Assembly (NCBI GenBank): GCA_020073105.1
Contig: JAIQFW010000017.1
Coordinates: 1-35,764, forward strand
Reading direction: 5' to 3'
From: Terriglobia bacterium
GTDB lineage: Bacteria > Acidobacteriota > Terriglobia > Terriglobales > Acidobacteriaceae
DNA length: 35,764 bases
In this document: piece after piece, positions 1 through 21,375 of the stretch
Layout: the number at the start of each line of letters is the position of its first letter
Position numbering within the stretch: the stretch's first letter is position 1
Notes under the pieces: generated by a model
The model's input: only the letters and a program-made list of their open reading frames with translations
What the model was told of the DNA's origin: nothing
Database searches by the model: none
Made by a program: the position numbers and the translations under genes

Positions 1-117
1 ATGCATGAGACTCTGTTCCCGGAGATTCTTAAGGAATATGGCGACCGGGTCACGTTTATCTACAAGGATTTTCCGCTGGCGGAGATTCATCCCTGGGCAA
101 TCCACGCCGCGGTTGAT
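1..117 (+). pseudogene. DsbA-like thioredoxin-fold protein, internal fragment
   Basis: Frame 1 from the first base reads as the middle of a DsbA/thioredoxin_4-type disulfide oxidoreductase: an LKEYGD stretch, then YKDFPL, then IHPW and HAAVD, in the order typical of the segment that follows the CxxC active site of this family. The active-site part would lie left of the window. Similarity stops abruptly after the Asp codon at 115-117; the frame stays open to 342, but the rest is only the antisense of the ATP-grasp gene. This is therefore a partial gene cut at both ends. It has no functional link to the polysaccharide genes and most likely marks an assembly join or a rearrangement breakpoint. 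Confidence 0.6.
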
Positions 118-1119
118 GGGTTCCACCGGCAACCCCAGAGCATCCCGGTAGGCCATGTGACAGACGTTCACACCGCAGCGGGCGGCAAATTCCACATACC
201 ACCACGGCCGCGCATTGATTTCCAGGATCTTGAACAAGCCGTTGCGGGGGTCACGCTTAAACTCCGCACTGAAGATGCCACGATAAGGTACGGTTGCGAG
301 CAATTGTTCGAGGATCGCGACTGCTCCGCCGATGTCGCTTAGCGGCACGCTTGCCGTCAGGCTGCTATTCCCCAAATCGCTCGGATGCATTCGCAGACGT
401 CGGCGGGCGAAACGCGCGCAGATTCGACCGCGGCGGTCGGCGAATCCGTCAATGAAGTGACTCTCCGTGGGTGGACCCGGAACATACTCCTGCAGCATGA
501 TGGGATATTCCAGTCTGGGCGCGAGTTTCAAAGCCTCGGCCTGGCTGCGCACCAAGTAGCCCTTGACCCCGTACTTGGCCGCAAACTCGATCGAGGAAAG
601 AGGCTTAAAGATGGCCCCGTCGAAGTCTTTTTCTGACATTTCCTGCAACTGTTCGCAAGAGTGGATCAGAACTGTCCGTGGATGTGGAGTGCAGCTGCGC
701 TCTAGCAGTTCCGCGAATCGCCACTTGTTCACCATGGTCTGAACGATTTCGGCGCGCGGCAAACTCGACCGAAAGCGGTTCATCAAGGAAGACGGTAGCG
801 CAACTACGGCTTGCAGCCAGTCGTCCGAGCACGGCATCAACACCGCTTCGTGAAGGGGAAGCGCCCGTAGGAACGCCGCCAGCTCCGCGGGCTTGAGGTT
901 TTCAGAGCCGCGCATGGGCGGCTGGCGATACCATCTTGAGTGCGCCGCAAAATCACCCTGTGCGCAGACCGCATATATGGGTACCCCGGCGCGACCGAAA
1001 ATCCTTAAGACGCCGCCTAGCGTGAGGCCGCCGCCGAAGGCCAACACTGGTACGGCTGCGGTTTGGGCTAGCAATTCCTGGGGCTGCGGCCGGTTGGGAA
1101 GAACCGTTGGTACAGACAT
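1..1119 (-). CDS. ATP-grasp family carboxylate-amine ligase-like protein, 3' truncated
   Basis: Reading leftward from ATG at 1119 (GGAG about 11 bases upstream) the frame is open for 373 codons to the window edge with no stop. The protein shows an N-terminal GGGLTLGG dinucleotide-like turn, a MPCSDDW segment, an LQEYVPGPP segment in the middle ATP-grasp fold and an EINARPWWY metal/ATP-binding motif near residue 305. These are hallmarks of the ATP-grasp enzymes that couple a carboxylate to an amine through an acyl-phosphate. Recognisable family sequence ends near position 118; the last 39 codons are antisense to a DsbA-like fragment and look unrelated. It lies 81 bases downstream of the export gene, so it is probably the last visible gene of this operon. 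The substrate is unknown; amide decoration of the polysaccharide or its precursor is an inference from context. Confidence 0.75.
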   Translation of the reverse strand, partial: MSVPTVLPNRPQPQELLAQTAAVPVLAFGGGLTLGGVLRIFGRAGVPIYAVCAQGDFAAHSRWYRQPPMRGSENLKPAELAAFLRALPLHEAVLMPCSDDWLQAVVALPSSLMNRFRSSLPRAEIVQTMVNKWRFAELLERSCTPHPRTVLIHSCEQLQEMSEKDFDGAIFKPLSSIEFAAKYGVKGYLVRSQAEALKLAPRLEYPIMLQEYVPGPPTESHFIDGFADRRGRICARFARRRLRMHPSDLGNSSLTASVPLSDIGGAVAILEQLLATVPYRGIFSAEFKRDPRNGLFKILEINARPWWYVEFAARCGVNVCHMAYRDALGLPVEPINRGVDCPGMNLRQRKILVDKRDPVAIFLKNLREQSLMH

Positions 1120-1200: not shown

Positions 1201-2196
1201 TCACAAGGGCCGATAAATCGCGGCACCGACAGCAACTTGCATGATGGCATCGAGGGTTCGGCGTGCGGCAGCTCTACCCTCGCTGCGCGGAACGAAAACA
1301 ATGTCATCCGCTTGCAGTTGGATATCCGCAGTTTTTGCCGTCATGATGTTCTTGAGCGGAATGGGGGTTTGCTGCGGGCCATCCGTCGATTTGCGGATCA
1401 GGATGGTCTTGTCAAGTTTGGCCGTACTGTTCGTACCTTGTGCCATGGCAATCGCTTGCAGGACCGACAATTGGGAATTCTCCATGACGAAGCCACCCGG
1501 CATGCGAACGTCTCCCACTACATAAACGATCCCAGCTTTGGATACCACCACGGTGTCTCCAGGAAAGACCGCGACATTGGTCTCTGGAGGAAAGGTCTGA
1601 TTGGAAGGGAGCACCACCGTTTGCGGGTCTCTGGGGTTGGCGCGCCGAGTAATCATGATCTTGTTTCCGGCCTTTGGCGTCAGTCCGCCGGCAGCCGAAA
1701 CCGCATCGAACAGCGCATGCTGGCCCAGCAGCGGATAGATCCCCGGCTTCTGCACTTCCCCCAATACCGAGATGCCTTGGGTGGCGTACTCCCTTTCAAA
1801 GATGGAAACTTGGGGGTTGGTAAAGAAGCCACCGTCGGACAAGCGCTGTTGGACCAGAATCTCTGCCTGCTGGATGGTTAGCCCGCCCACGTGTGTCGCC
1901 CCTATCAGGGGCAGCGAGATATCTCCCGAATCAGCCACGCGCACCGCTTTGGCAAAATCGGAGGCACCGTAGACAGTGACCTCGAGCAGGTCGCCAGCGC
2001 CAATGATCAGCCCGACCGTTCCTTGCACCTCGGCTGACGTTTGTGTGGCTGCGCTTTGAGGCGCTGCACCTGCGGCGGTCGGTGAAGACGGGACCTCGTT
2101 GCGGAGGGAACCACTCTGACCTTCGGTTCCAGGAGTCGCAATCAGAGAAGCCAACAGCACAAGAAATGTGATCAAACCAACTTTTTTCCCACGCAT
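1201..2196 (-). CDS. Polysaccharide export protein, Wza-like (Poly_export/SLBB)
   Basis: This 331-residue protein is a periplasmic/outer-membrane polysaccharide export factor. The ATG at 2196 is chosen because GGAGGTG lies directly upstream and the product then begins with a clean signal peptide (MRGKK followed by a hydrophobic stretch to about residue 21); the frame itself extends 11 codons further. After a Ser/Ala/Thr-rich linker comes the Poly_export domain (IGAGDLLEVTVYG, SGDISLPLIG, LTIQQAE, NPQVSIFE). Two SLBB-type segments follow (ISVLGEVQKPGIYPL and VYVVGDVRMPGGFVM). No lipobox cysteine follows the signal peptide, unlike classic Wza lipoproteins, and the protein is a little shorter than Wza. 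The gene follows the WbpA-type dehydrogenase by 26 bases. No Wzc-type co-polymerase or tyrosine kinase partner is present in the window. Confidence 0.9.
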   Translation of the reverse strand: MRGKKVGLITFLVLLASLIATPGTEGQSGSLRNEVPSSPTAAGAAPQSAATQTSAEVQGTVGLIIGAGDLLEVTVYGASDFAKAVRVADSGDISLPLIGATHVGGLTIQQAEILVQQRLSDGGFFTNPQVSIFEREYATQGISVLGEVQKPGIYPLLGQHALFDAVSAAGGLTPKAGNKIMITRRANPRDPQTVVLPSNQTFPPETNVAVFPGDTVVVSKAGIVYVVGDVRMPGGFVMENSQLSVLQAIAMAQGTNSTAKLDKTILIRKSTDGPQQTPIPLKNIMTAKTADIQLQADDIVFVPRSEGRAAARRTLDAIMQVAVGAAIYRPL

Positions 2197-2222
2197 GGGA
2201 CACCTCCGGAATCGGGCTGCGA

Positions 2223-3590
2223 TTAACAACGGGTTACATTGGAGGAAACGATACCGCGCGTGGCATTGCGAGTGTCAATCACCAAGCGCGATTCACGCAC
2301 GATCCGGGCATAGTCATAGTCAGAGTGGTCGGTCACAATGACTACGCAGTCGTACTGCCACAAATTGCTGAGCGAAACGCTTTTCAGCTTAAGGTCGTAT
2401 TTCCGGCCTCTGCCGATGCTGAGGAAGTAAGGGTCGTTATAGCTGACCACGGCCCCCTCTTTCTGCAGAAGCTCGATGATGGTAAGGGCCGGCGCTTCCC
2501 GCAGATCATCAATGTCCTTTTTGTAGGAAACCCCGAGAATGAGCACGTTTGCCGCTTGCAACGGTTTTGAGCGCTGGTTGAGAGCAGCCGCGATCGACTC
2601 CACAACGTGATAAGGCATGGAAGAATTGATCTCACCCGCCAGTTCGATGAAACGGGTGTGAAAGTCCCATTCCCTTGCTTTCCAGGAAAGGTAGAAGGGA
2701 TCCACGGGAATACAGTGTCCGCCCAGGCCGGGTCCGGGATAAAAGGGCTGGAAGCCAAACGGCTTAGTAGAGGCTGCTTCGATAACCTCCCAGATGTCGA
2801 TTCCCATGCGCTGACACAACAACTTCAATTCGTTGACCATGGCGATGTTGACACAGCGGTAAATATTCTCCAGCAACTTCGTCATCTCTGCGGCCGCGGG
2901 GCCGGACACAGGCACGGTGCGGTTGAAGATGGAGCCGTAGAGGCTGCAGGCGAGTCCGGTCGCCAGGCGGCTGGCGCCCCCCACAACCTTGGGAATATCT
3001 CGGCGAGCCACCGTATTGTTGCCCGGGTCCTCGCGCTCCGGAGAAAAGGCTACATACAGTAAGCGGTCTTCTGCTTGCCCATGGTTACGATCCACCCTGA
3101 GCCCCAGCCGGCTCTTCGATTCCAGCAGAGGGATCATCACCTCCTCTGTCGTTCCGGGATAGGTGGTGCTTTCCAGCACAATCAGCTGGCCCGGCTGGAC
3201 ATGAGGAGCCACGGATTCAAGTGTGCTGGTGATATAGGAGAGGTCAGGTTCACGATGCTCATTCAGAGGGGTGGGAACACAAATGATGATGGCATCCATT
3301 CCGGTCAGCAGCGAGTAGTCGGAAGTGGCGCGGAACCCCTGAGTGCGGGCAAGCTGTATCTCCGTGGCAGGGATACGGCAGATGTAAGAACTCCCTTTAC
3401 ACAATAGGTCGATCTTGTTTGTGTCGATGTCGAATCCAGTAACAGGAAATCGTTCCTCACTGAAAAGGAGGGCCAGGGGCAGCCCAACATACCCCAAGCC
3501 GATGATCCCGACGTGGGCAGTGCGGTTTCGAATCCGCGTCTTCAGTTGCGAACTCAAGGATGTGGGAGCCGTAACGGTAGTGGTCGACAT
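2223..3590 (-). CDS. wbpA: UDP-N-acetylglucosamine 6-dehydrogenase (WbpA-type nucleotide-sugar dehydrogenase)
   Basis: The 455-residue product oxidises C6 of a UDP-hexose to the uronic acid with NAD+. The N-terminal Rossmann motif GLGYVGLPLA (residues about 32-41) and the catalytic Cys293 in GGHCIPVDPFYL are clear, and a C-terminal UDP-binding domain follows. PGPGLGGHCIPVDP followed by YLSWKARE resembles WbpA/WbpO enzymes acting on UDP-GlcNAc rather than UDP-glucose dehydrogenases. The start has a GGAGG Shine-Dalgarno 8 bases upstream. With the WbpB-WbpD fusion and WbpE-type genes about 29 kb away in the same locus, it would supply the first step towards UDP-2,3-diacetamido-2,3-dideoxy-glucuronic acid. 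Substrate specificity (UDP-GlcNAc versus UDP-GalNAc) cannot be fixed from sequence alone. Confidence 0.9.
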   Translation of the reverse strand: MSTTTVTAPTSLSSQLKTRIRNRTAHVGIIGLGYVGLPLALLFSEERFPVTGFDIDTNKIDLLCKGSSYICRIPATEIQLARTQGFRATSDYSLLTGMDAIIICVPTPLNEHREPDLSYITSTLESVAPHVQPGQLIVLESTTYPGTTEEVMIPLLESKSRLGLRVDRNHGQAEDRLLYVAFSPEREDPGNNTVARRDIPKVVGGASRLATGLACSLYGSIFNRTVPVSGPAAAEMTKLLENIYRCVNIAMVNELKLLCQRMGIDIWEVIEAASTKPFGFQPFYPGPGLGGHCIPVDPFYLSWKAREWDFHTRFIELAGEINSSMPYHVVESIAAALNQRSKPLQAANVLILGVSYKKDIDDLREAPALTIIELLQKEGAVVSYNDPYFLSIGRGRKYDLKLKSVSLSNLWQYDCVVIVTDHSDYDYARIVRESRLVIDTRNATRGIVSSNVTRC

Positions 3591-3647: not shown

Positions 3648-4655
3648 CTATTTAGAATGAGAACCGCAATGGATTTCGTGTACAGGTTCAATGAGTAATG
3701 GCGGTTGATGAAGGTATGCGGTAGCCTTGCGCTTAGCGTCAATGGAGTCGCACACGGCCTTCGCCTCATCCGGGGTGAGGCCGGCGGCTGCAGCTACTTC
3801 ATCATAGGGAAGTCCATTGTTCTTACCGTACAAGCAAAGATCCAGGGTGCGAAGAGGCACGGAAAAGTAGAACTCCTCTTGCGACTGGGACATGGAAAAC
3901 GTGTCGGTGGTAGAGGGCCGTTCACGGATCTCCGCCGGCAGACCGAGATATTCTGCCAACTCGTACACCTGCGACTTGTAGAGATGGGCGATGGGCTTCA
4001 GATCGGCGGCGCCATCGCCGTTCTTGACGAAAAATCCCTGATCGTACTCGAGACGATTCGGTGTGCCTGCGACCGCGTATTGCAAGCGGTCCGCGTGGTG
4101 GTATTCCAACATCTTGCGGATGCGCTGTTTGAAGTTGCTTGCAGCAACCACCTCCCAGTACACCTCTGCCGTCAGGCGTACCTTGTGCAGCCCGCCATTA
4201 GAAGTCTCAACTACGAGCGAAGGCAGAGCATAGCGTGCACCGCTGGCGATCTCCGCCATCACCAGCTTGCATTTGTGTTTCCCGCCAAAATCCGGGACGA
4301 GCTTGCGTATGGCCTCGTCGCGACGGCGGTAGCAGCCTGCGGCTTCCAGGATGGGAGTGATGTCTTCAAGCACGGTACGGATCCGCAACAGGTCTGCCAA
4401 CTGCAGGCTCAAACGGAGACCCTCGTCGGAACACTCACGCTCTGGCATCAGCAATGCCAGTACGCGTTGGTTGCCCAACGCCCGCACGCAGAGTGCTGCG
4501 ACCACGCTGCTGTCAACACCTCCGGAAAGCCCTAGAACAACCCCCTTCCGCCGCAGCTTAGAAAGAACGATGGTAGTGATTGCCGACGTAATCTTTTCAG
4601 CGGTTGCTTCGGGGTCGATTCTCAACCAAGGTGTGGTACTCATAGCTGTGCTCAT
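3648..4655 (-). CDS. NadE-like ammonia-dependent NAD synthase family protein (polysaccharide-locus paralogue)
   Basis: The 335-residue protein belongs to the NAD synthase (NadE) branch of PP-loop ATP pyrophosphatases. The PP-loop SGGVDSS is at residues 44-50, and the later FFVKNGDGAADLKPIAHLYKSQV segment matches the NadE core that binds the nicotinate adenylate and positions ammonia. No nitrilase-type glutaminase domain is present, so it would use free ammonia. It differs from housekeeping NadE by being about 60 residues longer, with an insertion between the ATP motif and the KNGDG motif, and by GTPNRLE replacing the usual GT-N-S/A-E pattern. It overlaps the AMP-ligase gene by ATGA, implying coupled translation. 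Either it really makes NAD+ or, more interestingly, it amidates another adenylated carboxylate in the pathway; the second option is inference. Confidence 0.8.
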   Translation of the reverse strand: MSTAMSTTPWLRIDPEATAEKITSAITTIVLSKLRRKGVVLGLSGGVDSSVVAALCVRALGNQRVLALLMPERECSDEGLRLSLQLADLLRIRTVLEDITPILEAAGCYRRRDEAIRKLVPDFGGKHKCKLVMAEIASGARYALPSLVVETSNGGLHKVRLTAEVYWEVVAASNFKQRIRKMLEYHHADRLQYAVAGTPNRLEYDQGFFVKNGDGAADLKPIAHLYKSQVYELAEYLGLPAEIRERPSTTDTFSMSQSQEEFYFSVPLRTLDLCLYGKNNGLPYDEVAAAAGLTPDEAKAVCDSIDAKRKATAYLHQPPLLIEPVHEIHCGSHSK

Positions 4656-6220
4656 GCTGCTGCTCCTGCCAGAGTCTCGTGGTCAACAACGAGTTCCCGC
4701 TTGGCGATCTTGCCGTTTGCAGATTTTGGCAACACCGGTCGGAACTGCACGATCTTGGGAACCATGAAGTCTTCCAGTCGGTCCGCACAGAAGGCCCGCA
4801 GTTCCATCTCGGTGAGTACTTCTCCCGGCTTGAGGCTAACGAATGCGCAAATCGCATTCCCGAATACCGCATCGGGCACACCGATCACAGCTGCCTCGGC
4901 AACTTTAGGATGCGTGTACAGGATGTTCTCCACTTCGCGCGGGCTTACTTTCTCGCCCCGGGTTTTGATGATGTCGTCCGTGCGACCCACAAAATAGAGG
5001 TAGCCTTCGTCGTCCGTACGAAACAGGTCACCGGTATACAGCACCTTCTCATTCGGGAAAGGACCGGGGCGCAACACTTTGTCGGTCTCTTCGGGAAGTT
5101 CCCAGTAACCCTTCATGACATTGGCACCACGCACTACCAGCTCTCCCACTACACCGGAACCCACGCGGCCACCACACGAGTCCACTAGGTACACTTCTTC
5201 GTTGGGCATCCCGCGACCGACCGAACCGGGGCGGAGGGTGAGTTGATCGGGGGGCAAGTAGGACACGCGCTTGCACTCGGTCAGGCCATACATCGAATAA
5301 AGTTTCACTTTGGGAAATGCCTGGCACAGCTTTCGAATGTGTTCGACCGGTAAGGCGGCCGCGGTGTTGCTGATGTAGCGTAAGTCGGGAAAACTGTAGC
5401 TCCCCAGATCCATCTGGAGCAGGATGGAGGCGATGGTAGGGACAATTGGGAATCCGGTCACGCGCTCTCGCTTCAGAACTTCGAGCACCGCTCGAGGGTA
5501 TGTGAAAGATTGCTCCAGAACGAGAGTTCCGCCAATTGTGAATGCCATGAGCAATTGGTAGAGACCATAGTCAAAAGCGAGTGGCAACACGTTGATGATG
5601 ATGTCCTCGGGTGTGTTCTCCAGATAGGTCGTGATGGAAGTGGCGGCGGAGACCATGTTCAGATGGGTCACCATGACGCCTTTCGGCCTCCCAGTTGATC
5701 CGGACGTGTAGATCAGAGCGGCGAGATCAACATCGATGTTTCGTTGAATGGGGCGTTCACTAGACCGCCCCTCCATCGTCGCGCTCATGCTCGCCACACG
5801 CTTGCCAGCTAGAACGGGCAGGTCGGAGACTGCTCCCCCAACGATGACGTCGTTCAAGGATGGAACCTCGGCTGCTGCCGGCAGCGCGCCGGACAAGAGT
5901 TTGTCGGCGGTGATCAGGCATACCGCCCGGCAATTGTTGAGAATATAGGCAAGCTTGTCCGGCTTGGTCGTCGGATTAATAAGCAGGAAGATAGCCCGAG
6001 CTTTCAAGATAGCGAAGATCGCCACCACCGTGTCCATCGAATTATTGGCGAAGACGGCCACTCGGTCCCACCGCTGCACGCCGCGTTCGATCAAGGCATG
6101 CGCGAGTCGGTTGGCTAGAGTGTCAATTTCTGCGTACGTCACCCGATGCGGACCGCAAATCAATGCCGTCTTCCCGGGATTCGTTTGCGCACTTCGCTCC
6201 AGAAACTCTTCGAGTTGCAT
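4652..6220 (-). CDS. AMP-forming acyl/aminoacyl ligase (ANL superfamily)
   Basis: The 522-residue protein carries the complete set of adenylate-forming enzyme motifs. These are YTSGSTGRPKG (about 171-181), YGLTE, the TGD motif in VLYTGDLFR, the hinge region GRTDDIIKTRGEKVSP, and the C-terminal catalytic lysine in ANGKIAKREL. It activates a carboxylic acid as an acyl-AMP and would load it on CoA or on the carrier protein encoded just upstream (30 bases apart, same strand). The ligase plus ACP pair resembles DltA-DltC in organisation and also the acyl-CoA ligases found in exosortase-associated polysaccharide loci, although no exosortase occurs here. The substrate (amino acid, hydroxy acid or fatty acid) is unknown. 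Start ATG at 6220 has a GAAGG-like ribosome-binding site. Confidence 0.88.
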   Translation of the reverse strand: MQLEEFLERSAQTNPGKTALICGPHRVTYAEIDTLANRLAHALIERGVQRWDRVAVFANNSMDTVVAIFAILKARAIFLLINPTTKPDKLAYILNNCRAVCLITADKLLSGALPAAAEVPSLNDVIVGGAVSDLPVLAGKRVASMSATMEGRSSERPIQRNIDVDLAALIYTSGSTGRPKGVMVTHLNMVSAATSITTYLENTPEDIIINVLPLAFDYGLYQLLMAFTIGGTLVLEQSFTYPRAVLEVLKRERVTGFPIVPTIASILLQMDLGSYSFPDLRYISNTAAALPVEHIRKLCQAFPKVKLYSMYGLTECKRVSYLPPDQLTLRPGSVGRGMPNEEVYLVDSCGGRVGSGVVGELVVRGANVMKGYWELPEETDKVLRPGPFPNEKVLYTGDLFRTDDEGYLYFVGRTDDIIKTRGEKVSPREVENILYTHPKVAEAAVIGVPDAVFGNAICAFVSLKPGEVLTEMELRAFCADRLEDFMVPKIVQFRPVLPKSANGKIAKRELVVDHETLAGAAA

Positions 6221-6250
6221 GACGTTACCTTCGTATCCTGTGGTTGTGAG

Positions 6251-6544
6251 CTAGGCGGTTTGGTGTTGCAACCGCTGGGAAGCAACCGGCGCCAGCTGCA
6301 GCTCCAGTTTACGGCGAAGAAATCGCGCGAGTTGGGCAATCGAATCCAGATTTTCGGGCACGAGATCCGCTTCTTCGACCTGAATTCCGTACTGCTTCTC
6401 CAGGAAATTCACCAGTTCGAGCAATCCGCTCGAGTCGATGATTCCCAAGTCCAGAAACGAATCCTCATCACGCATCTGACACTCCCGCCCGTACATGAAG
6501 TTGTCGATTACGAAACGGCGTAGTTCTGTCTGTAGTCGGTCCAC
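6251..6544 (-). CDS. Acyl carrier protein
   Basis: The 97-residue acidic helical protein contains the phosphopantetheine attachment site in GIIDSSGLLEL, with Ser38 after the Asp as the expected modified residue. The EKQYGIQVEEADLVPENLDSI segment is typical of helix III and its approach in carrier proteins. Its start codon lies 37 bases inside the end of the asnB gene and its stop lies 30 bases before the AMP-ligase start, so it is embedded in one transcription unit. It probably carries the acyl or aminoacyl group activated by the neighbouring ligase before transfer to a sugar. Fatty acid synthesis is unlikely because no fab gene is adjacent. Confidence 0.88.
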   Translation of the reverse strand: MDRLQTELRRFVIDNFMYGRECQMRDEDSFLDLGIIDSSGLLELVNFLEKQYGIQVEEADLVPENLDSIAQLARFLRRKLELQLAPVASQRLQHQTA

Positions 6545-8472
6545 GATGGGCCTCCTTGTTGAAAACTGGTTACGAATTGATGGATGACAAGCTGGGTGGA
6601 AAGCACACCCACAAGTGCCATGTCGTCCTTCACTCCGATCGCCCGGCCGGTCTTGAATTTCTCAACCAGCTTGGCCACAGCCGGTGCATCAAACAAGCCA
6701 CCGTCCTCGATGGTTCCGGGTGCCAGCAGTTCCTCAAGATAAACATCGGCGCCGCCGGCAAAGAAGCTTCTTCCGTCAGGAGCACGGTAGGGTTGCTTGT
6801 GTCGATTCAGAATGGCAGGCGGTAGCAGCTGACCGAAGGCCCGCTTCAGAATGTATTTTTCATTCAGAACTTTCATTTTGAGATGCTGCGGAAGCTTGGC
6901 GGCAAATTCCACAACACGGTAATCGAGAAAAGGGTGCCGCGTTTCCACCGAGTGAGCCAGGGCCACGCGGTCGCCTTGCGATGACAGAATGTAGCCCGGC
7001 AACAGGAACATGGTTTCTAAGTACTGTGCCTGACAGAAACTGTTCCAACGGAAGTAGTCCAGCGGCAGTTTCCCGGCTAGTTCACTCACGGCATTGTTCT
7101 CGGGAACCACCTGGTGCATCTCGTCTGAGAAGAGCACCTTTAGGCGCGAAGTTAGCTCCCATCTCGGCAGGTGCGAGAAGAAGGGATTTCTGAGGTCTTC
7201 CTGGCTGGCGTGAAAGAACTTCTGCAGATAGGCATCCGGTTGCTTCTGGAGGTTATTCTGATACGGATACAGCCGACGCAGCAACCGGGGGCGGTAGGCC
7301 GACTGGGGTTGTGCCGCCCAGAACCGGCGGATCTTCTGCTCCTTATAGATGTCATAACCGCCGAAGATCTCATCGGCACCCTCGCCGGTGAGGACGACCT
7401 TGTACCCGTTATCACGCACCAGCCTCGAAAGCAAATACAGCGGCGCTGGGGCCGCCCGGATGATTGGTTGCTCCGTATGCCAGATCATTTCCGGAAACGC
7501 GGCAGCCACATCGTTGTACCCACAACGTATCTGTTGGTGAGCCGTGTTCAGGAATCGGATTGCGTCCTGCTGAAACGGGGTCTCATCCAGTTCTTCCGGA
7601 GTGAAGCCAATGGAAAAGGTGCGCAGCCGGGAACCGACTATCTGGTTGGCCAGCGCAGTCACAATAGTGGAATCCAAGCCCCCGCTTAAATAGGCGCCGA
7701 CAGGAACATCGGAGCGAAGACGGATACGAGTGGCATCGGTAAGCAGTTCCGAGAGTTGTTCAACATACTCACCCTCGGGCCGCACTATTTCGGGACTGTC
7801 AAAATCGAGCTGCCAATAGCAGTGAATTCGGATTTCTCCGTCCTTGAACGTAAGTGAACTCGCCGGCGGCAGCTCACAGATATCTTTGAAGATCGTCCTA
7901 GGCGGAACCGTGAACCAAAAGGTAAAGATCTGGTCGAGTCCCGCCCGGTCTATCTCCCGGCAAACACCCGGATGGGCAAAGAGGGACTTGATCTCCGAGC
8001 CAAAGATCAAGTTGCCGCCCACCTTGGTGTAGAAAAGCGGCCGAACCCCGAGCCGGTCTCGAGAGAGAAAAAGTTTGCGCTCTCGCGCGTCCCAGACCGC
8101 CATCCCCCATTGTCCATTCAGATAGCGAACGCACTCCTCGCCTTTCTCCTCGTACAGATGAAGAATGACCTCGGTATCCGAGTGAGTCGCGAAGATGTGT
8201 CCGTGGGCAAGCAACTGCTTGCGCAGTTCAACGTAGTTGAAGATTTCACCGTTGAAGGTGATCCACAAGGATTCGTCTTCGTTGTGAATCGGCTGGTGGC
8301 CGCCATCGACATCAATGATGCTCAGCCGGGCGTTGGCCAAGCCGATACCATGGTCGGCGTGCAGACCCCATTCGTCCGGGCCACGGTGCCGAACCAGGCC
8401 GATCATGCCTTTCAGCACATCCGTGTCAACGTAGGCGCTTTGCGAATTGCAAATCCCAGCGATCCCACACAT
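6508..8472 (-). CDS. asnB: Asparagine synthase (glutamine-hydrolysing), AsnB family
   Basis: The 654-residue enzyme has an intact N-terminal class II glutaminase domain starting MCGIAG, with Cys2 as nucleophile, then RHRGPDE and FNGEIFNY. The C-terminal synthetase domain carries the PP-loop SGGLDST at about residue 263 and TGEGADEIFGGYD. The glutaminase frees ammonia from glutamine and the synthetase adenylates a carboxylate and amidates it. In polysaccharide loci, AsnB homologues such as WbpS have been proposed to convert uronic acids to uronamides, and AsnB paralogues recur in exosortase-linked clusters. Here the gene heads the asnB-ACP-ligase-NadE-like cassette, after a 367-base gap. Aspartate amidation to feed the ligase or direct uronamide formation are both possible. 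Confidence 0.9.
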   Translation of the reverse strand: MCGIAGICNSQSAYVDTDVLKGMIGLVRHRGPDEWGLHADHGIGLANARLSIIDVDGGHQPIHNEDESLWITFNGEIFNYVELRKQLLAHGHIFATHSDTEVILHLYEEKGEECVRYLNGQWGMAVWDARERKLFLSRDRLGVRPLFYTKVGGNLIFGSEIKSLFAHPGVCREIDRAGLDQIFTFWFTVPPRTIFKDICELPPASSLTFKDGEIRIHCYWQLDFDSPEIVRPEGEYVEQLSELLTDATRIRLRSDVPVGAYLSGGLDSTIVTALANQIVGSRLRTFSIGFTPEELDETPFQQDAIRFLNTAHQQIRCGYNDVAAAFPEMIWHTEQPIIRAAPAPLYLLSRLVRDNGYKVVLTGEGADEIFGGYDIYKEQKIRRFWAAQPQSAYRPRLLRRLYPYQNNLQKQPDAYLQKFFHASQEDLRNPFFSHLPRWELTSRLKVLFSDEMHQVVPENNAVSELAGKLPLDYFRWNSFCQAQYLETMFLLPGYILSSQGDRVALAHSVETRHPFLDYRVVEFAAKLPQHLKMKVLNEKYILKRAFGQLLPPAILNRHKQPYRAPDGRSFFAGGADVYLEELLAPGTIEDGGLFDAPAVAKLVEKFKTGRAIGVKDDMALVGVLSTQLVIHQFVTSFQQGGPSWTDYRQNYAVS

Positions 8473-8839: not shown

Positions 8840-10651
8840 TCAAGCACTGGGAGCCAACAAGCTTTCTGGCGAAATCGATGGCCTCGAGGGCTCTGCCCAG
8901 AGCGCCTCAAGCAAGGTCAACGTCTGCCAGCAGCGGACACCTCGGGTTGTTGCCGTCTTGAGCATTTTTCGAACGACGCATGCATCCATCATTCCGTGCT
9001 CGCTGACGCTATCCACAATCGTCTGCGGCAATTGCGTGCGCCGGCTCCGGCCGAGAACCGCCAGAAGTTTGTGCCGAGCATTGGGAGGTACCCTCAAGCA
9101 GTAGGACAGCAATCTGACTCTCCATGGAAACACCCATGAATTCGGAGCCACGCCGTACGTCGCATCGGGAATCGCCGCAACCTCCGGGTGTAACTTTTTC
9201 TGAAATGCGCAATACAAACGGTTATTGGATTTGAGCGCGTCGGGCACCTGCATGGCATGTTGAAACAAGGGGAAAGAATAAAAGGGGGTAGTCTGCCACA
9301 AGAAAAATCGCGCCCGGTCTTCGCCTTCAAAAAGCCAGTTATGTCCGCGCTCGTAGATCGTGTAATGGACCGACTTGTGCCCCCAGTCTCGTTCGGGATA
9401 GCTGAGCAAAAGATCTCGCAATTCTGCCACGAGGAGGCCAGCATCCAAATGAAAGATCTGCTCGACGATTTGCAATGGAAGGATGGCATGTTCCTCGATC
9501 ACATACTTGACCAACGCGTCCAGATTCACGACAGGTCTGCGCGGAAGAGCGCCCGGGAAGATTTTGTCGCCACCGTCACCTGTGACATAGGTTGCAGTTC
9601 GCCCCCAGCGTGCCACAATCACATCCATAAAAGCGAGGATGAAGGTCATGGTCACCAAGTTATGGCCATCGGTCATCGAGACCAGCCGTTGCTGCTGAAC
9701 TGCATCGCCGTCGGGAACAGGAATGAAATGCCACGGTATCTTGAGTTTTTTGGAGATCAGCTCCGCCAAGTGGACATCTTCACTACCGTAGCCACTCGGC
9801 GTGGCAAAGGTGGCAGCGACACAGGAAGCATTTTCTCGTCTCATCGCGACCGCTACGGCCCGCGAATCTTGCCCCCCACTCAGCGAAATGACGTTGAGCC
9901 CGGCGTCGGGACCGCATCCACGGCTGCGGGTCGCAGAGAGAAACAAATCAACCAACTCAGTCACGACAGCATCGCATTTTCGAGACAAGTCTCGCTCCTC
10001 GAAATTGGACTGAAAGAGTGTTGCCACTCGAGTGGAGATCTCTGGCCCGGAAACCTTCGCGGCAAGCAGCGACGCGGCCGGCAATCGTTTTACGCTCTCG
10101 AACAGCGTTCTTGTGCCTAACGCATATCCCAGCCAGAGCGTCTGCGCCGCACCCAAGCGATCGAGGCCGACCCCTGCGAACCGGGCCACGAACTTGTCCT
10201 CCCGGCCAGCAATTAGCTGCTTATCATTGGCAAAGTACACAAACGGCAGCCGGCCCAATGGATCATTGAAGATCATCAGGTCCTTCGCGGCGGTATCGGC
10301 AATTGCGATCAGGTACTCGCCATCGGAGTCCAGAATCCACTGCTTGATGAGTTGCTCTCTTGCTTCTGGATGGATGTCAATGTCCTCGACGAGCTTACGC
10401 AATTCACGCTCCACCGAGCCCGACTCTTGGCCGTAGATGCGGCCTTCGAACGCGACAAGATACGCGCCGAACCTAATAACCCGCACCGGATAATCCGGAT
10501 ATCCCACGTGTCCAACAATCAGACCCGGCGAGCAAACGTCGATCACAGCCTTGTAGTCCCGGCTGTGCAGCATCAGTGATTGCAGGTCACGAAACCTGCG
10601 TTCGATGCCGTTCGAGATATCCGCTGTGAGACACAGAGTGAGACCGGGCAT
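8840..10651 (-). CDS. Asparagine-synthase-like protein lacking the glutaminase nucleophile
   Basis: This 603-residue protein has the two-domain layout of AsnB but is strongly diverged. Its N terminus reads MPGLTL, so the Cys2 that a class II glutaminase exposes after Met removal is replaced by Pro, and no substitute Cys is at the N terminus. FEGRIYG is the degenerate match to the FNGEIFN motif. The synthetase domain keeps a variant PP-loop SLSGGQDSRA near residue 257 and TGDGGDKIF. It could use free ammonia or ammonia from another subunit, or catalyse a different ATP-dependent condensation, as beta-lactam synthetase does in the same superfamily. The ATG at 10651 sits inside a perfect hairpin with its ribosome-binding site. 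The gene is preceded by a decayed asnB copy, so this region has collected several family members. Confidence 0.82.
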   Translation of the reverse strand: MPGLTLCLTADISNGIERRFRDLQSLMLHSRDYKAVIDVCSPGLIVGHVGYPDYPVRVIRFGAYLVAFEGRIYGQESGSVERELRKLVEDIDIHPEAREQLIKQWILDSDGEYLIAIADTAAKDLMIFNDPLGRLPFVYFANDKQLIAGREDKFVARFAGVGLDRLGAAQTLWLGYALGTRTLFESVKRLPAASLLAAKVSGPEISTRVATLFQSNFEERDLSRKCDAVVTELVDLFLSATRSRGCGPDAGLNVISLSGGQDSRAVAVAMRRENASCVAATFATPSGYGSEDVHLAELISKKLKIPWHFIPVPDGDAVQQQRLVSMTDGHNLVTMTFILAFMDVIVARWGRTATYVTGDGGDKIFPGALPRRPVVNLDALVKYVIEEHAILPLQIVEQIFHLDAGLLVAELRDLLLSYPERDWGHKSVHYTIYERGHNWLFEGEDRARFFLWQTTPFYSFPLFQHAMQVPDALKSNNRLYCAFQKKLHPEVAAIPDATYGVAPNSWVFPWRVRLLSYCLRVPPNARHKLLAVLGRSRRTQLPQTIVDSVSEHGMMDACVVRKMLKTATTRGVRCWQTLTLLEALWAEPSRPSISPESLLAPSA

Positions 10652-10670
10652 TCCTTCCTCGTAAGGAATG
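10649..10670 (-). promoter_or_regulatory. Hairpin covering the ribosome-binding site and start codon
   Basis: The transcript of the asparagine-synthase-like gene can form a perfect 8-bp stem: CAUUCCUU pairs with AAGGAAUG across a 6-base loop, ACGAGG. The AUG that ends the 3' arm is the gene's start codon, and the GAGGAAGGA Shine-Dalgarno is split between loop and stem. Such a structure could limit initiation until it is opened. Whether it is regulatory is inference; the pairing itself is visible. Confidence 0.45.
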
Positions 10671-10735
10671 GCAATCGTTGCTGAACCAGAAGGAGAAAGA
10701 TAAACCCTGCAGCCGGGAACTGCGACAACTCATCT

Positions 10736-11508
10736 CTAATTTCCGTGCGGTCTGGCCTGCTCCCCGCCCCGGATGAAGTGATCGACAATGAGTTTCGTCG
10801 AGAGAATACCGACAATGGCCATGTCGTCTTTGACGCCAATGGCACAGCCAGCACGACATTTATCGATTAACTGTGACATCGAGCTTGCATCGACGATTCC
10901 CTCCATCTCGACTCTTCTGAATGACAACACGTCCTCCACATAGCCGTTTCCAGAATCTGCGAAGAAACCTCTCCCCTCCGGCGCACGGTGGGGTTGCTTG
11001 TGGCGATGGAGGATCGAAGAGGGCAATAACCCTCCGCACGCCTGCTCAGGATGTATTTCTCATTCAGAACTTTCATCTGAGATGCGGCGGCAGCTTGGCG
11101 GCAAACTCCACCGCAAGGTAATCAAGAAACGGATGCCGTGCTTCCACCTCGGGCGGGAGCGCCACTCGGTCCCCTTGCGACGACAAAATGTATCCGGGCA
11201 ATAAGAACATGGTTTCCAGATACTGCGCCTGACAGAAGCTGTCCCAGTGGTAATACTCCAGGGGGGAGCTTTCCCATCAGTTCGCCGACTGGATCGTGTT
11301 CCAGCAGCCGGTGTCTTGTCTCTTCGGAGAAAAGCACCTTTAAGCGCGATGTCAACTCCCACCCGGGCAGATGCGAGAAGAATGGACTGCGGAGATCCTC
11401 TTCGTTTGCGTGAAAGAACCTCCGCAAATAAGAATCCAGTCGCTTCTGAAGATTGGCCCGATAACGATACAAGCGGTGCAGAAGCCGGGCGCGGTAACTC
11501 GAACCAAG
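10736..11508 (-). pseudogene. Decayed 3' part of a second asnB gene
   Basis: Stitched across frames, this stretch matches roughly the last 270 residues of the intact AsnB at 6508-8472: SYRARLLHRLY, FSHLPGWELTSRLKVLF, FCQAQYLETMFLLPGYILSS, MKVLNEKYIL, HRHKQPHRAPEGR and IGVKDDMAIVGILSTK. At least three single-base indels break it: an extra base in a six-G run (11261-11266), a lost base near 11078 (HLR then a stop, where the intact gene has HLKMKV), and another near 11030. The glutaminase domain and the PP-loop are absent, and a stop lies just upstream of the homology, near 11533. Several indels together with a missing 5' half argue for real decay rather than a single sequencing error. Divergence from the intact gene is considerable, so the duplication is old or the copy came from a different asnB lineage. 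Confidence 0.8.
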
Positions 11509-11605
11509 TTGCTCATTCAGCGTGACCTATTGCAGAAACAGCATCGCGAACCGAAGGACCGTTCCGCTCGGATGTGAAACTCATCGGTGTCCCTCACACT
11601 GCGGT

Positions 11606-12709
11606 TTACACATCATTAAATCCGTTAAAGATGTTCCACGCCCGGGCTTGCGCGAACGCGTGAGCGAGGGGATGCTCCCCCAACCAGAACCCGACCAGGG
11701 GAAAGTAAGGGTATCCACCAAGAGATGGAGGCATGCATACGAAGCCGTGCGACGTCAGTTGCGATGACAAAGGCAGAGAGCGCAAATGTGCTACCCAAAC
11801 GGTGCTCCCCATCTCAGACCGGGCATGACATGCTTGCAGGATGGCGTGGGCTGCGGTCACCCGTTGGCTATCGATGCCGCAGTCTACGATCCACGAACGC
11901 TCGGAATTGTGGCGAACCACCACGTACGCGCAGGGTCGTCCCGCAGCCGGGACGATCGCCAGAATCTCGTATCGATTCACAGGATCCCTGAAAAAACGCC
12001 ACCGCAAATACTCACTCGACACACGCTGGACAAAGCGCTCCTGGGGTGCCGACCAATCTTCGAGTGAAAGGTTCCCTAACTCGGCTTCCGGTACATTCAC
12101 AACCCTTAGGCTGCCGTAGTTAGGATGTAAATTGGCAGCTAAGACTCTTTTTGCGGCGGCGCAGAAATCAACGATCGGACTCGCGACCCTACCAACCCAG
12201 CCGAGATGCGACTGCAATAGCTGGCGCGAACCGTGAATAAATGCATGAGTCGTCCAGAGATCGATAACTTTATATCCCAAGCGTAGGAAAATAGGCTGGG
12301 AAAACTGATTGGGGATGCCCATCAGAATGTCAACTTCCTTATTTGTGACCAAGGACTTGGTAGCACGCACCAGAGAGAACGCACCCAGGTAAACTCGTTT
12401 GCTGCGGTCCACCAAGAGGTTGCCGGCAACTCCAGCTTTGACTGTCGTTTTTCCATGACGTAGATCACGTACAGTTACCGAGCAGAGTCCGCATATTTCC
12501 CCCTTGCCATCTCGCAAGATCCAGGAGAATGGCCGTTCCTGGCCCTGGTCGCGATAGTACCAATCAAAACGTCGCGCGACCTCTGGGGTTCCATTCCTTT
12601 GACATAGGGCTAAGATATCGTTCTTGTACTCGCGCAAATCGACCCTCTCCACAACGGTGCTCGTGTTCGGCGCAGTGGGTGCGGCAAATTCGACGAAGTT
12701 GGTATCCAT
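11606..12709 (-). CDS. GNAT-like acetyltransferase family protein
   Basis: The 367-residue protein looks like a GNAT-fold acyltransferase with a long C-terminal extension. The N-terminal half has FDWYYRDQG, then a core strand pattern VKAGVAGNLLVDRSKR that resembles the GNAT acyl-CoA-binding region. ILMGIPNQFSQPIFLRLGYKVI follows, typical of the GNAT end segment in which a residue in N-x-x-S/A-x-x-x-Y/F-x-K/R-L-G-Y/F contacts the substrate. It has no signal peptide or membrane segment. The start is supported by GGAAA upstream of 12709. It stands between the two-domain glycosyltransferase-like gene and the asnB remnant, 23 bases after the former, so they are probably co-transcribed. A role in transferring an acyl or aminoacyl group from the nearby carrier protein to a sugar amine is plausible but not shown. 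Confidence 0.6.
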   Translation of the reverse strand: MDTNFVEFAAPTAPNTSTVVERVDLREYKNDILALCQRNGTPEVARRFDWYYRDQGQERPFSWILRDGKGEICGLCSVTVRDLRHGKTTVKAGVAGNLLVDRSKRVYLGAFSLVRATKSLVTNKEVDILMGIPNQFSQPIFLRLGYKVIDLWTTHAFIHGSRQLLQSHLGWVGRVASPIVDFCAAAKRVLAANLHPNYGSLRVVNVPEAELGNLSLEDWSAPQERFVQRVSSEYLRWRFFRDPVNRYEILAIVPAAGRPCAYVVVRHNSERSWIVDCGIDSQRVTAAHAILQACHARSEMGSTVWVAHLRSLPLSSQLTSHGFVCMPPSLGGYPYFPLVGFWLGEHPLAHAFAQARAWNIFNGFNDV

Positions 12710-12732
12710 GAGCGTTTCCGTGAAGAGCGATG

Positions 12733-14478
12733 CTAGATAAGTTCGATCAATGGCCGCGTGAGGTTTACGGTTTCCATTACGAGATTTGAGTTACGGCGGG
12801 ACAGAGGACCGACCAAAGTTCTTCCATCCAGTACTTCGTACCGTTTACTACGGTTGAATGTGTGCGTGCCCAGGTTGGCTTTCATCCATCCTGGTTTGAC
12901 GGTTCCGACCGAGGTTTCGTGATATTCGGTTTCGGTCAGAACGTCAACACGGTTCAGCGTTACCGCCCAACTGTCGGCTGCCGAGTAATCCTGACCCGGC
13001 CGGATCAAATGTCCGTCCGCTAGAAAAAGGTGACCGGCGGGCCGACATCTTCGTATGTCAGAGACAATCGGATTGCGTGGGTGGGGTGCCCAGGGCCCGA
13101 ATAAGGAATTCGAGAAGAACAGAAAGAGTTCACTCTTGCCGTCAAACCAGGAATCCGAGCTTCCGATCCCCGAGGTAAACATCCAAAACTTGCCTTTGTG
13201 GTTGAGTATGGTTGTGTCGACAGCGGCAACGCCACGAAGAAGTACGCCCGCCAATTCCCAATCCCATGGGAAGTCAATCGCACGGTACAGCTGAATCGTT
13301 TTGTTGTCCTTGGTTTCGGGCAGGAGATAGGTCTCTCCGTGCCACTCGAATATGCAGGGATAAGAGAGGTGATAAGGTTCTTCCAACACTATTTGAGGGG
13401 CGCCGCAGCCTTTCGCCGCGTCAATCTCCACAAAGGAGATAACTCCTTTCCTTTGGGCACAAGAATAGTCCTCGAAAAAGACATAACTCTTCTCGCCTCG
13501 ATCAATCACGAAGGGGTCGGCATAAAAGTGATTGGACGGAGCGCGTACGATCGTGAGACTATTTCCTCCTGTTGTCCAGTCTTCATCAGGGGCTCTTTTC
13601 CTAAGAGCGATGAACCATTGCTCATGGAAGAGAATGGCGCGAATCAACTGTTTGACCATCCGAACCAACATCCGACTTAGCAGGCGCGCCGTTTCGACGT
13701 TCCCGCGTGCCGCGCCACGATTGGCAGCCGGAGTCTGAAGCAAGTCTTGGATGTACTGCGTATCATGGCGCCGCAGGTCATCCAAGCATTGGGCAAGCAT
13801 CGCTGACCGTTTGGAGCACAGGTTGCTGTAGTTGCGAAACAGGGAAAGACCATCGACAGGCAGATAGGCGCAAGGAAGCCTTCCTTCTCGATTGCTCACC
13901 GCAACGTTTATGCAGTTTTCGATGGGAAGGCTAGGATGCGACATTCTCGAAACGATCTTGAGAAGCAGATCGTCTATTTCTTCGAATGACCAAACGCCGC
14001 ATCGGACCGACTCCTGGAGTCGTACCTTCGGAACCACCGTGCTGAGATTCACCAACACATCCAGGTGCGCGCGCATAACCGCCTCGAGGTCTTTTGGATC
14101 ACATTCGAATCGATTGTCGACCAGCGTAATCTGCACCTCGAGCAGCTCAGGGCGACTGCGTACCGGGGCAAATGAAACCACATCAAAAACATCCGGTCTC
14201 ATAGAACGAGCCTTAAAGACCTTTTCGTCCAACTGCCGCCACAACTTGAACAACAGAGAGGCACGAGGGGCAACGGGCAGGACAATGGAAGCATCCTCGT
14301 CCTTTTTGACCGTGGCAATCAGCACCAGCTCAGCAATAGTCGACTGATCCAGCAGGTCGAGGATCTGGTGTACCCATCTGGGAACAGCCGGCGATTCCAG
14401 GATGACTCCAACTCGAAGCCGATGAGGGACGGGCTGAGCCCGCAAGCTCGGTTCAACGTAAGTGTCCACGATGGTCAT
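12733..14478 (-). CDS. Formyltransferase-like / GIPC-transferase-like two-domain protein
   Basis: The 581-residue product appears to have two parts. The first 200 or so residues resemble the formyltransferase fold (RVGVILESPAVPRWV near the start, LDVLVNLS, then GVWSFEEIDD), but the usual GVWSFHHGD pattern with its catalytic histidine is not there, so formyl transfer is doubtful. The region from about residue 300 shows the pattern of the glucosamine inositolphosphorylceramide transferase N-terminal family (HFYADPFVI, YVFFEDY, QIVLEEPYHLSYPCIFEW, AVDTTILNHKGKFWMFT, SELFLFFSNSLFGPW, RPAGHLF), a five-bladed propeller-like fold seen in sugar-transfer proteins. It begins the minus-strand run after a divergent intergenic region. 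It may transfer or recognise a sugar during polysaccharide assembly. Confidence 0.6.
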   Translation of the reverse strand: MTIVDTYVEPSLRAQPVPHRLRVGVILESPAVPRWVHQILDLLDQSTIAELVLIATVKKDEDASIVLPVAPRASLLFKLWRQLDEKVFKARSMRPDVFDVVSFAPVRSRPELLEVQITLVDNRFECDPKDLEAVMRAHLDVLVNLSTVVPKVRLQESVRCGVWSFEEIDDLLLKIVSRMSHPSLPIENCINVAVSNREGRLPCAYLPVDGLSLFRNYSNLCSKRSAMLAQCLDDLRRHDTQYIQDLLQTPAANRGAARGNVETARLLSRMLVRMVKQLIRAILFHEQWFIALRKRAPDEDWTTGGNSLTIVRAPSNHFYADPFVIDRGEKSYVFFEDYSCAQRKGVISFVEIDAAKGCGAPQIVLEEPYHLSYPCIFEWHGETYLLPETKDNKTIQLYRAIDFPWDWELAGVLLRGVAAVDTTILNHKGKFWMFTSGIGSSDSWFDGKSELFLFFSNSLFGPWAPHPRNPIVSDIRRCRPAGHLFLADGHLIRPGQDYSAADSWAVTLNRVDVLTETEYHETSVGTVKPGWMKANLGTHTFNRSKRYEVLDGRTLVGPLSRRNSNLVMETVNLTRPLIELI

Positions 14479-14612
14479 TTCCGGTCCTACTCAGTCAACT
14501 TCGGTGGATTTATTGAACAATTCTGAGTTCCGCTGGAGGTCGGCTTCCTTGTGGATCATTGCAACTATCGGTGAGCCCTGATAAGAGTACCTTTGTCAAT
14601 GAAGATATATCG

Positions 14613-14642
14613 TTGCCCGGTACCCAATAGATTATGTACTAT
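14613..14642 (+). promoter_or_regulatory. Weak candidate sigma70-type promoter for the lipoprotein gene
   Basis: In the 261-base divergent gap (14479-14739), TTGCCC at 14613 and TACTAT at 14637 are separated by 18 bases, about 100 bases upstream of the GTG start of the plus-strand lipoprotein gene. Both hexamers are imperfect. A TTGACA-like -35 for the opposite direction is visible as TGTCAA at 14594-14599, but no good -10 partner was found. Confidence 0.2.
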
Positions 14643-14739
14643 CGAGTCTGGACAGCCACGCCCTTCCGAATTATACTTCCCGTCAAGATTTTTGAGTAAG
14701 CAGCCTGAATAAATTCCAAGAACTCAGAGGTTTTGTTTC

Positions 14740-17653: not shown

Positions 17654-19000
17654 TTACGACGGCGGAACGAACTCATACGCTCCGACATCGCAAGTACTTT
17701 GCTGTGGACGGGGGTTGCCGTCAAAATCGATCGCAGGCGCATTCAGCGCTGTTCCGCGACCGATAGCGGGACTCCCAGGTTGCAGGTGATAGTCCCCAGT
17801 GGCGTCGCCGGTGTACTTCACAAACAGAGGATTGCCACTATAAGAATTCGATACCGTGCATGTCCTGCATAGGCTGTAGGCCCTGCCCCCGATGGGCATG
17901 TAGACTAGATTGTTGGACATGACCGCGGTGCCCACCGTGAGTGCCGTGGCGAACCCCATCACCCCCGCGGACCAGCGCTCATCCACGATGTTGTTGTAGG
18001 CATAATCGATTGTCCCAGCCACGTCGTTGACCAGATAGAAGGCACCGCGCCCGTCTTTGATGGCGGTGTTGTTGCCCAACCTCTGATTGCTGACCGGGTG
18101 ACTCGGGGGATGCCCGCCCATGCTGAAGCCGAACCCGCCGGCCCGAAGCGATATGTTGTTGGTGGCGGTCAGATTCGACATACTCAAGTAGAAGTTGGCT
18201 ATGTAGGGGCAAGTGTGCAGGGCGACAAAGTCTCCCTGCCCGCCGATGTTGTCAACCAGATTGGAATCGACTAGTGCGGTATCCGTTAGCGGTGGACCTG
18301 TGTTCTGACTGCTGATCACAATGCCCCCGCCTCCTTCTTTCTGGCTGCAGCCTCTAATCCTGGAATCGCGGTTCAGATCATGGATCCGGTTCTGCTGGAC
18401 AGTGGTGTGCCCGCCTGTGACGAGCATTCCGATGCGGCAACTCCCGGTAATAGGGTCCTCGGTGATGTCGAATCCGATGTAGTCAACGTAACTGCCCGCA
18501 GCATTAAAGCAACTGTCTTCTTTCCCTGTAACAACCAGCTTGGCACCCCACTTAACGTCCGAAATGTAGGTGATGCGGGCGGTAGCGGCCCCGCTTCTTC
18601 TGAGGGAAACAGCATTGTTATATGTTCCAGGCATAACGTGGACTATTGCCCTCGGCCCGATCATAGTGTCGGCATGGTTGATGGTTGCCCAAGGTCTTTC
18701 CTTGGAACCGTTCCCAGTCTTGTCGTTGCCATTTGGCGATACGTAGTAGTCGTGAGGCTTTTTCCGTCTGGCAGCGCCACCACTTCCATCGTTCAATGCG
18801 AAAGAGCCATATGGGGCAGTGCCAGAACTACGCTCCTGTCCAGGGTTGTAAGGATTCTCGATACCGTCGGTCGGCACGGAAACGCAGAAAGTCGGTGTGC
18901 TCCATAGTGGCTCGGCAGCAAGAAAGAATAGAACAACCTGGACCAGGGATCTGATCCGCGTTTGAAATTCGCGAAATGGTCCGAAAGATGTTATGTCCAC
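17654..19000 (-). CDS. Secreted right-handed parallel beta-helix protein
   Basis: The 448-residue product is a paralogue of the C-terminal half of the lipoprotein at 14740-16809. Shared landmarks are YYVSPNGND, PWATINHADTMIGP, GFDITEDPITGSCRIGM, IHDLNRDS, FSMGGHPPSHPV, NNIVDERW and GNPLFVKYTGDA near the end. It lacks the Ig-like repeats and the lipobox. A short hydrophobic stretch at about residues 19-30 could be a signal peptide, and a linker precedes the helix at about residue 85. The start is a GTG at 19000 with no strong ribosome-binding site, so it is tentative. Beta-helix proteins of the DUF1565/pectate-lyase-like type commonly act on or bind extracellular polysaccharide. The inverted arrangement with its paralogue suggests duplication with inversion. 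Confidence 0.75.
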   Translation of the reverse strand: MDITSFGPFREFQTRIRSLVQVVLFFLAAEPLWSTPTFCVSVPTDGIENPYNPGQERSSGTAPYGSFALNDGSGGAARRKKPHDYYVSPNGNDKTGNGSKERPWATINHADTMIGPRAIVHVMPGTYNNAVSLRRSGAATARITYISDVKWGAKLVVTGKEDSCFNAAGSYVDYIGFDITEDPITGSCRIGMLVTGGHTTVQQNRIHDLNRDSRIRGCSQKEGGGGIVISSQNTGPPLTDTALVDSNLVDNIGGQGDFVALHTCPYIANFYLSMSNLTATNNISLRAGGFGFSMGGHPPSHPVSNQRLGNNTAIKDGRGAFYLVNDVAGTIDYAYNNIVDERWSAGVMGFATALTVGTAVMSNNLVYMPIGGRAYSLCRTCTVSNSYSGNPLFVKYTGDATGDYHLQPGSPAIGRGTALNAPAIDFDGNPRPQQSTCDVGAYEFVPPS

Positions 19001-21262: not shown

Positions 21263-21375
21263 CTCTACTACTCCTGCCCTTTGGCACCAGCCACCGTCGA
21301 CCTCTACATCTGCCCCGGACAACCGAGCGGAGCCTGTAGATACCCCTTCTGTCCGCTAAAGGGAGGGGTTCAAGC

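Follow-up and report, generated by a model that had tools for sequence, protein, structure and literature searches.

We asked what a protein resembling NAD synthetase does in a compact cassette that also codes for an AsnB-type amidotransferase, a carrier protein and an adenylating ligase. The cassette lies in a 35,764-nucleotide stretch of DNA from a Terriglobia bacterium, analysed as a whole and called the window here. All four open reading frames are on the minus strand (Table 1), and their packing is exactly that described in the original prediction: asnB overlaps the carrier gene by 37 bases, the carrier and ligase genes are 30 bases apart, and the ligase gene overlaps the NadE-like gene by 4 bases. 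A nucleotide-sugar dehydrogenase gene follows after 57 bases, probably on the same transcript. The four genes are real, but the span originally given to the cassette, 4652-8472, leaves out the NadE-like gene, its most informative part. The family assignments held. The NadE-like protein passed NF002048 (the PRK00876/NF002048 subfamily) with 474 bits against a cut-off of 313, AsnB passed the asparagine synthase model TIGR01536 with 508 bits (cut-off 267), and the ligase and carrier matched PF00501 and PF00550, the GTG start of the carrier coinciding with the point at which its homologues start. The WbpA type proposed for the dehydrogenase is tentative: only the general NDP-sugar dehydrogenase model TIGR03026 was passed, and the WecC and TviB equivalogs scored below cut-off.

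Table 1. Features of the cassette and its surroundings in the window.
Feature	Position	Strand	Length	Match or remark
AsnB-type glutamine amidotransferase / amide synthetase (asnB)	6508-8472	-	654 aa	TIGR01536
Carrier protein, free-standing	6251-6544	-	97 aa	PF00550; GTG start
Adenylating ligase, free-standing, NRPS-like	4652-6220	-	522 aa	AMP-binding, PF00501
Predicted NadE-like amide synthetase, NAD synthetase paralogue	3648-4655	-	335 aa	NF002048
Nucleotide-sugar dehydrogenase	2223-3590	-		TIGR03026, 400 bits, over cut-off
Polysaccharide export protein, EpsE-like	1201-2229	-		TIGR03028, 141 bits, below cut-off of 263
Candidate GNAT-type transferase	11606-12709	-		Profile match, E 2e-6; no Pfam match
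Decayed second asnB copy	10748-11511	-		Frameshifted, N-terminal half missing

The locus also holds a Gfo/Idh-hexapeptide fusion gene and DegT genes, matched at family level. In the decayed asnB copy, tblastn recovered residues 388-642 of the intact AsnB across three frames at 46-80% identity, which suggests a duplication followed by loss. By profile search, the candidate GNAT-type transferase is a distant relative of a protein of about 370 aa found beside rhizobial copies of the cassette; its AF2 model (pLDDT 36) gave no usable structure. A divergent AsnB-like protein (8840-10651, minus strand) lacks the N-terminal Cys, starting MPGL, keeps an intact PP-loop (SGGQDS) and weakly resembles cyclase-type AsnB relatives. 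At the window end, an ATP-grasp-like protein is truncated (1-1119, minus strand); its relatives adjoin three other NadE-like modules (loci L039, L062 and L063). Two secreted proteins encoded on opposite strands (14800-16809, plus; 17654-19000, minus) share the region YYVSP..GDGS..PWATLNHAD and are probably paralogues.

We compared the NadE-like protein with NAD synthetases. Its AF2 model (pLDDT 89.6, pTM 0.88) has the NadE fold, with VIA Z values of 22-30 to most solved NadE chains and of 30.1, at an rmsd of 2.6 for 238 residues, to the NMN synthetase of F. tularensis. In a tree of 31 NadE-like and 32 NadE sequences, the NadE-like proteins formed one clade with a support of 100/100. In the numbering of B. 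subtilis NadE with Met, whose reference sequence was checked against 1ee1, the positions on the ATP side are kept: the PP-loop, which reads SGGVDSS, together with Asn134, Arg138, Arg140, Glu163, Asp174 and Lys187. Thr170, present in 100% of the NadE set, is Val in the window protein and is lost family-wide; Lys259, just as constant there (100%), has mostly given way to Leu or Met in the NadE-like family (Leu in the window protein); and Asp221/Glu222 are replaced across the family, with Ser in place of Asp221 in the window protein. An extra segment at about residues 118-162 directly precedes a long helix; judging from known NadE structures, it may lie on the acceptor-acid side. Alignment positions, tree and model thus bear out the large insertion and altered residues that had been read from the sequence. 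The original prediction had also proposed looking for a separate housekeeping nadE, and this search was positive: another contig of the host genome codes for a full-length glutamine-dependent NadE (546 aa; NF010588, 688 bits, cut-off 479), and a separate NadE was present in 38/38 other Acidobacteriota genomes with a NadE-like gene, the weakest scoring 96 bits in a 633-codon frame (genome G333). We therefore rejected the NadE-like protein as the sole or main NAD synthase of its hosts. Together with the separate clade and the changed positions, this indicates that it is probably not an NAD synthase.

How far the four genes travel together was assessed in 62 NadE-like loci, which span nine or more lineages of phylum level. 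The set comprised some 5-20 kb around Acidobacteriota NF002048 genes (the cut-off was passed in 39 of 396 Acidobacteriota genomes, spread patchily over families), relatives from Proteobacteria, Spirochaetes, Planctomycetes, Ignavibacteria, KSB1, Myxococcales, Anaerolinea, Bacteroidales and Zixibacteria, and plasmid loci. A companion gene was counted when it lay within 9 kb of the NadE-like gene, and the controls were 61 loci whose nadE gene, ordinary or distant, was of similar length. A ligase gene was found near 52/62 NadE-like genes, a carrier gene near 38/62 (44 with an added profile search) and an AsnB gene near 39/62, compared with 0/61 controls for each. Plasmid searches contributed six loci. 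As four of these were picked up via the ligase, the ligase count is slightly too high; without these four it is 48/58. Gene order varies among loci. Nine of them have exactly the arrangement asnB-acp-ligase-nadE: the window, a gammaproteobacterial MAG, Chelativorans, Chromatiales, Myxococcales, S. meliloti pSymB, Shinella, M. ciceri (Mesorhizobium ciceri) and Nitratireductor, the Shinella and Nitratireductor copies being on plasmids. The median intergenic gap inside module runs is 8 bases. The S. meliloti 1021 copy is complete (pSymB, NC_003078.1, about 1450582-1455388; 10151-14957 of locus L237), and other strains of the species have its NadE-like gene annotated as NAD(+) synthase. Co-occurrence relative to controls, the repeated order and the short median gap are strong evidence for a functional module. 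Thus, the suggestion that the four genes work as a unit with a conserved order is borne out, and the NadE-like protein is very probably not the NAD synthase of its cell. Of the findings that were to refute the original prediction, neither genomic one turned up: the NadE-like gene is not the sole NadE of its genome, and the gene order recurs. AsnB as an essential member of every module was rejected, since it is absent near 23/62 loci. An apparent fusion of an adenylation domain with NadE in Mesorhizobium AR07 (L239, 9235-12957) was set aside; the join reads like a frameshift, and RefSeq starts NadE separately. Viral contigs yielded distant NadE relatives only and no members of the NadE-like family. 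We found no published description of this gene combination in the open-licence literature.

The partners would fit a thiotemplate process of variable substrate. Among solved structures the ligase comes closest to an NRPS adenylation domain, one from linear gramicidin synthetase, and its motifs look intact by reading (YTSGSTGRPKG, YGLTE, YTGD and NGKI); its best NCBIfam model, the XrtA ligase TIGR03098, failed at 472 bits (cut-off 592). In NRPS domains, Asp235 and Lys517 hold an amino acid, and the window ligase has the equivalents of both, the former in FDYGLYQ. Among ligase subtypes, however, the Asp235 position is D, G, S, A, C, V or I. This difference between modules implies that the acyl group differs, so that one common acyl group is unlikely, and a single fixed amino acid for all copies was rejected. 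In all subtypes, 49/49 family ligases carry an Arg in the predicted substrate pocket, three or four positions downstream of the A5 Glu; it is missing from the few other adenylating enzymes compared. We place it at GrsA position 330/331, this and the other position names being provisional. This Arg may reflect a substrate with an extra carboxylate, hence something for the NadE-like protein to amidate; it could instead contact something besides a substrate carboxylate. In the carrier, the Ser of the DS motif is invariant in 16/16 homologues, and most of the solved structures that come closest are peptidyl carrier proteins, PigG among them. AsnB shows, by reading, Cys2 (MCGI), a PP-loop SGGLDST and GEGADEIFGGY; its nearest solved structure is the hydroxyamidotransferase 7ylz, and it fell short of both the XrtA amidotransferase model TIGR03108 (446 bits, cut-off 817) and the N-acetylglutaminylglutamine amide amidotransferase model (345 bits, below cut-off).

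Polysaccharide genes occur near 25/62 NadE-like loci and near 4/61 controls. The polysaccharide setting originally proposed therefore holds for many copies, but around some of the complete ones no sugar genes are annotated. In S. meliloti, a polysaccharide locus lies some 10 kb beyond the module, past minCDE. On the Nitratireductor plasmid, the four genes are accompanied only by a hypothetical protein of about 370 aa, likened to GNAT by size and place only, and no annotated polysaccharide genes are nearby. Recurrent companions are a HemK/PrmC-like methyltransferase, the GNAT-like protein of about 370 aa, SGNH-type proteins, hexapeptide acetyltransferases, and an exosortase together with a small PEP-CTERM-like protein. 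No transferase accompanies the module in every locus. The module is not bound to the neighbouring uronic-acid gene: the type of ligase substrate varies, AsnB is often missing, and complete copies without annotated sugar genes nearby exist.

Several companions deserve separate mention. The HemK/PrmC-like methyltransferase gene lies beside the module in L244 (13710-14435), L239 (16893-17585), L237 (26521-27297) and L051-L057; since PrmC methylates an amide nitrogen, N-methylation of the module's new amide is possible. L056 (11651-12505), L057 (9800-10750) and L078 (15237-16079) encode, beside the module, SGNH-type proteins that are predicted to be extracytoplasmic and contain an unusual block, GHHSVG or HHS. 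An exosortase and a very small protein with a PEP-CTERM-like end adjoin Acidobacteriota NadE-like modules in L056, L058, L062 and L066. Relatives of the ligase in Rahnella (L241) and Tritonibacter (L243) belong to thiotemplate clusters with KAS III and acyl-CoA dehydrogenase, which may offer a clue to what the ligase takes as its substrate.

We tentatively propose that the module is a mobile thiotemplated carboxamide former that combines carrier loading with amidation by the NadE-like protein and, in the window, delivery to a sugar. The ligase would adenylate a carboxylic acid bearing a further carboxylate, for the window subtype probably an alpha-amino acid, and load it onto the carrier. The NadE-like protein, with its nicotinate side rebuilt, would adenylate a carboxylate and exchange AMP for ammonia to give a carboxamide. 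Where present, AsnB could perform a second glutamine-dependent amidation or supply ammonia. Finally, the carrier would hand the amidated (amino)acyl group to an acceptor; for the window, an amino sugar of its polysaccharide is the likeliest. What we observed are the gene set and its conservation, the distinctness of the NadE-like proteins from NAD synthases, the intact catalytic motifs, the carrier Ser and the pocket Arg; the acyl identity, the order of the steps, the substrate of the NadE-like protein, the acceptor and the transferase are what we infer. Most likely, the module commonly serves the decoration of surface polysaccharides.

Other explanations were weighed against this proposal. 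That these are merely unrelated genes grouped by chance within a large polysaccharide locus is scarcely credible: each family is common by itself, but the control-locus comparison and an order conserved across phyla contradict it. It is also very improbable that the NadE-like gene encodes an additional NAD or NMN synthetase, with the other genes as unrelated neighbours. Public records do annotate an NAD(+) synthase, the fold is the same and the F. tularensis NMN synthetase is among the nearest structures; against this stand another NadE in every module-bearing genome tested, the tight linkage to ligase and carrier, and the lost equivalents of Thr170, Asp221/Glu222 and Lys259.

A uronamide pathway is a less easily dismissed, though still unlikely, explanation. 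A WbpS-like AsnB, together or alternating with the NadE-like protein, would act on the uronic acid that the neighbouring dehydrogenase makes and amidate its C6 carboxylate. Ligase and carrier would separately attach an aminoacyl group to the amine of a sugar, in the manner of the Wbp/Vim pathway. In Porphyromonas gingivalis, the AsnB-like WbpS gives glucuronamide and VimA determines the amino acid on the sugar amine (PMC7468200), and the window dehydrogenase, Gfo/Idh-hexapeptide fusion and DegT protein are of the kinds used for diacetamido uronic acids. However, the published pathway works without a NadE-like protein, which tracks ligase and carrier better than sugar genes (52/62 for the ligase, 25/62 for sugar genes); stand-alone module copies have no annotated sugar genes; and the candidates for VimA-like (transferase) and VimE-like (CE4 deacetylase) proteins in the window (20375-21322, 25343-26206) had no Pfam or NCBIfam match, nor did the VimA candidate match any solved structure. 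We consider it improbable, too, that the product is a diffusible (acyl-)amino acid in amidated form, for instance an osmolyte or signal, with the module's place in polysaccharide loci being secondary. The compact Nitratireductor plasmid copy, adjoined only by its hypothetical protein, Holophagaceae modules with no polysaccharide genes alongside, and the sub-threshold 345 bits of AsnB to the N-acetylglutaminylglutamine amide model speak for such a small molecule; the polysaccharide enrichment (25/62 against 4/61) and the recurrence of predicted extracytoplasmic SGNH proteins and exosortase genes speak against it.

The thiotemplated carboxamide former has a wider version, which we put forward as a doubtful possibility: that a family annotated as NAD(+) synthase is a carrier-dependent amide synthetase acting on an (amino)acyl thioester made by ligase and carrier, that it is widespread and horizontally spread, and that it creates a previously undescribed class of amidated acyl decorations on surface polysaccharides. 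In nine or more phylum-level lineages, that of the model symbiont S. meliloti among them, genes labelled nadE are probably misannotated and would belong to a four-gene pathway for which the open-licence literature yielded no description. If this is true, carrier-linked amidation joins the known routes of surface-sugar variation or leads to a new amidated metabolite. Since a tractable laboratory strain, S. meliloti 1021, shares the gene order of the window, the product is directly determinable.

Among known systems, NadE itself (NH3-dependent, of the N-type ATP pyrophosphatase family) shares the fold, the SGGxDS PP-loop and the ATP-side positions with the NadE-like protein; in that family a carboxylate is adenylated and then attacked by ammonia (PMC3376133). 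The NadE-like protein differs in its own clade, the segment at about 118-162, the changes at Thr170, Lys259, Asp221 and Glu222, and in sharing every genome tested with another NadE. The XrtA/PEP-CTERM exopolysaccharide set provides the best or second-best models of the window ligase and AsnB (TIGR03098 and TIGR03108), and exosortase genes adjoin some module copies, but both proteins fall far under the curated cut-offs (472 versus 592 and 446 versus 817 bits). To our knowledge, that set has no NadE-like member. The linking-sugar Wbp/Vim pathway likewise combines an AsnB-like amidotransferase, uronic-acid sugar genes and an amino acid on a sugar amine; its genes are matched in the window at family level (nucleotide-sugar dehydrogenase, Gfo/Idh with hexapeptide transferase, DegT aminotransferase), and the paper describing it ties VimA and AsnB-like proteins to exosortase clusters (PMC7468200). 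It is a reasonable precedent that would make uronamide and aminoacyl-sugar formation chemically plausible, although the published pathway has no NadE-like protein, ligase or carrier. Free-standing NRPS adenylation and carrier pairs of the PltF/PltL and PigI/PigG type are resembled by the ligase, structurally nearest to an NRPS adenylation domain and with the Asp235 and Lys517 equivalents, and by the carrier, close to peptidyl carrier proteins such as PigG; here, however, the partners are a NadE-like protein and AsnB, not a prolyl dehydrogenase, and other module loci lack Asp235. Finally, the Rahnella ligase-carrier pair, found with a type III PLP-dependent enzyme, and the Tritonibacter cluster have a ligase of the same family, with FDYGL, the pocket Arg and an adjacent carrier, but other thiotemplate enzymes stand where the module has its NadE-like protein.
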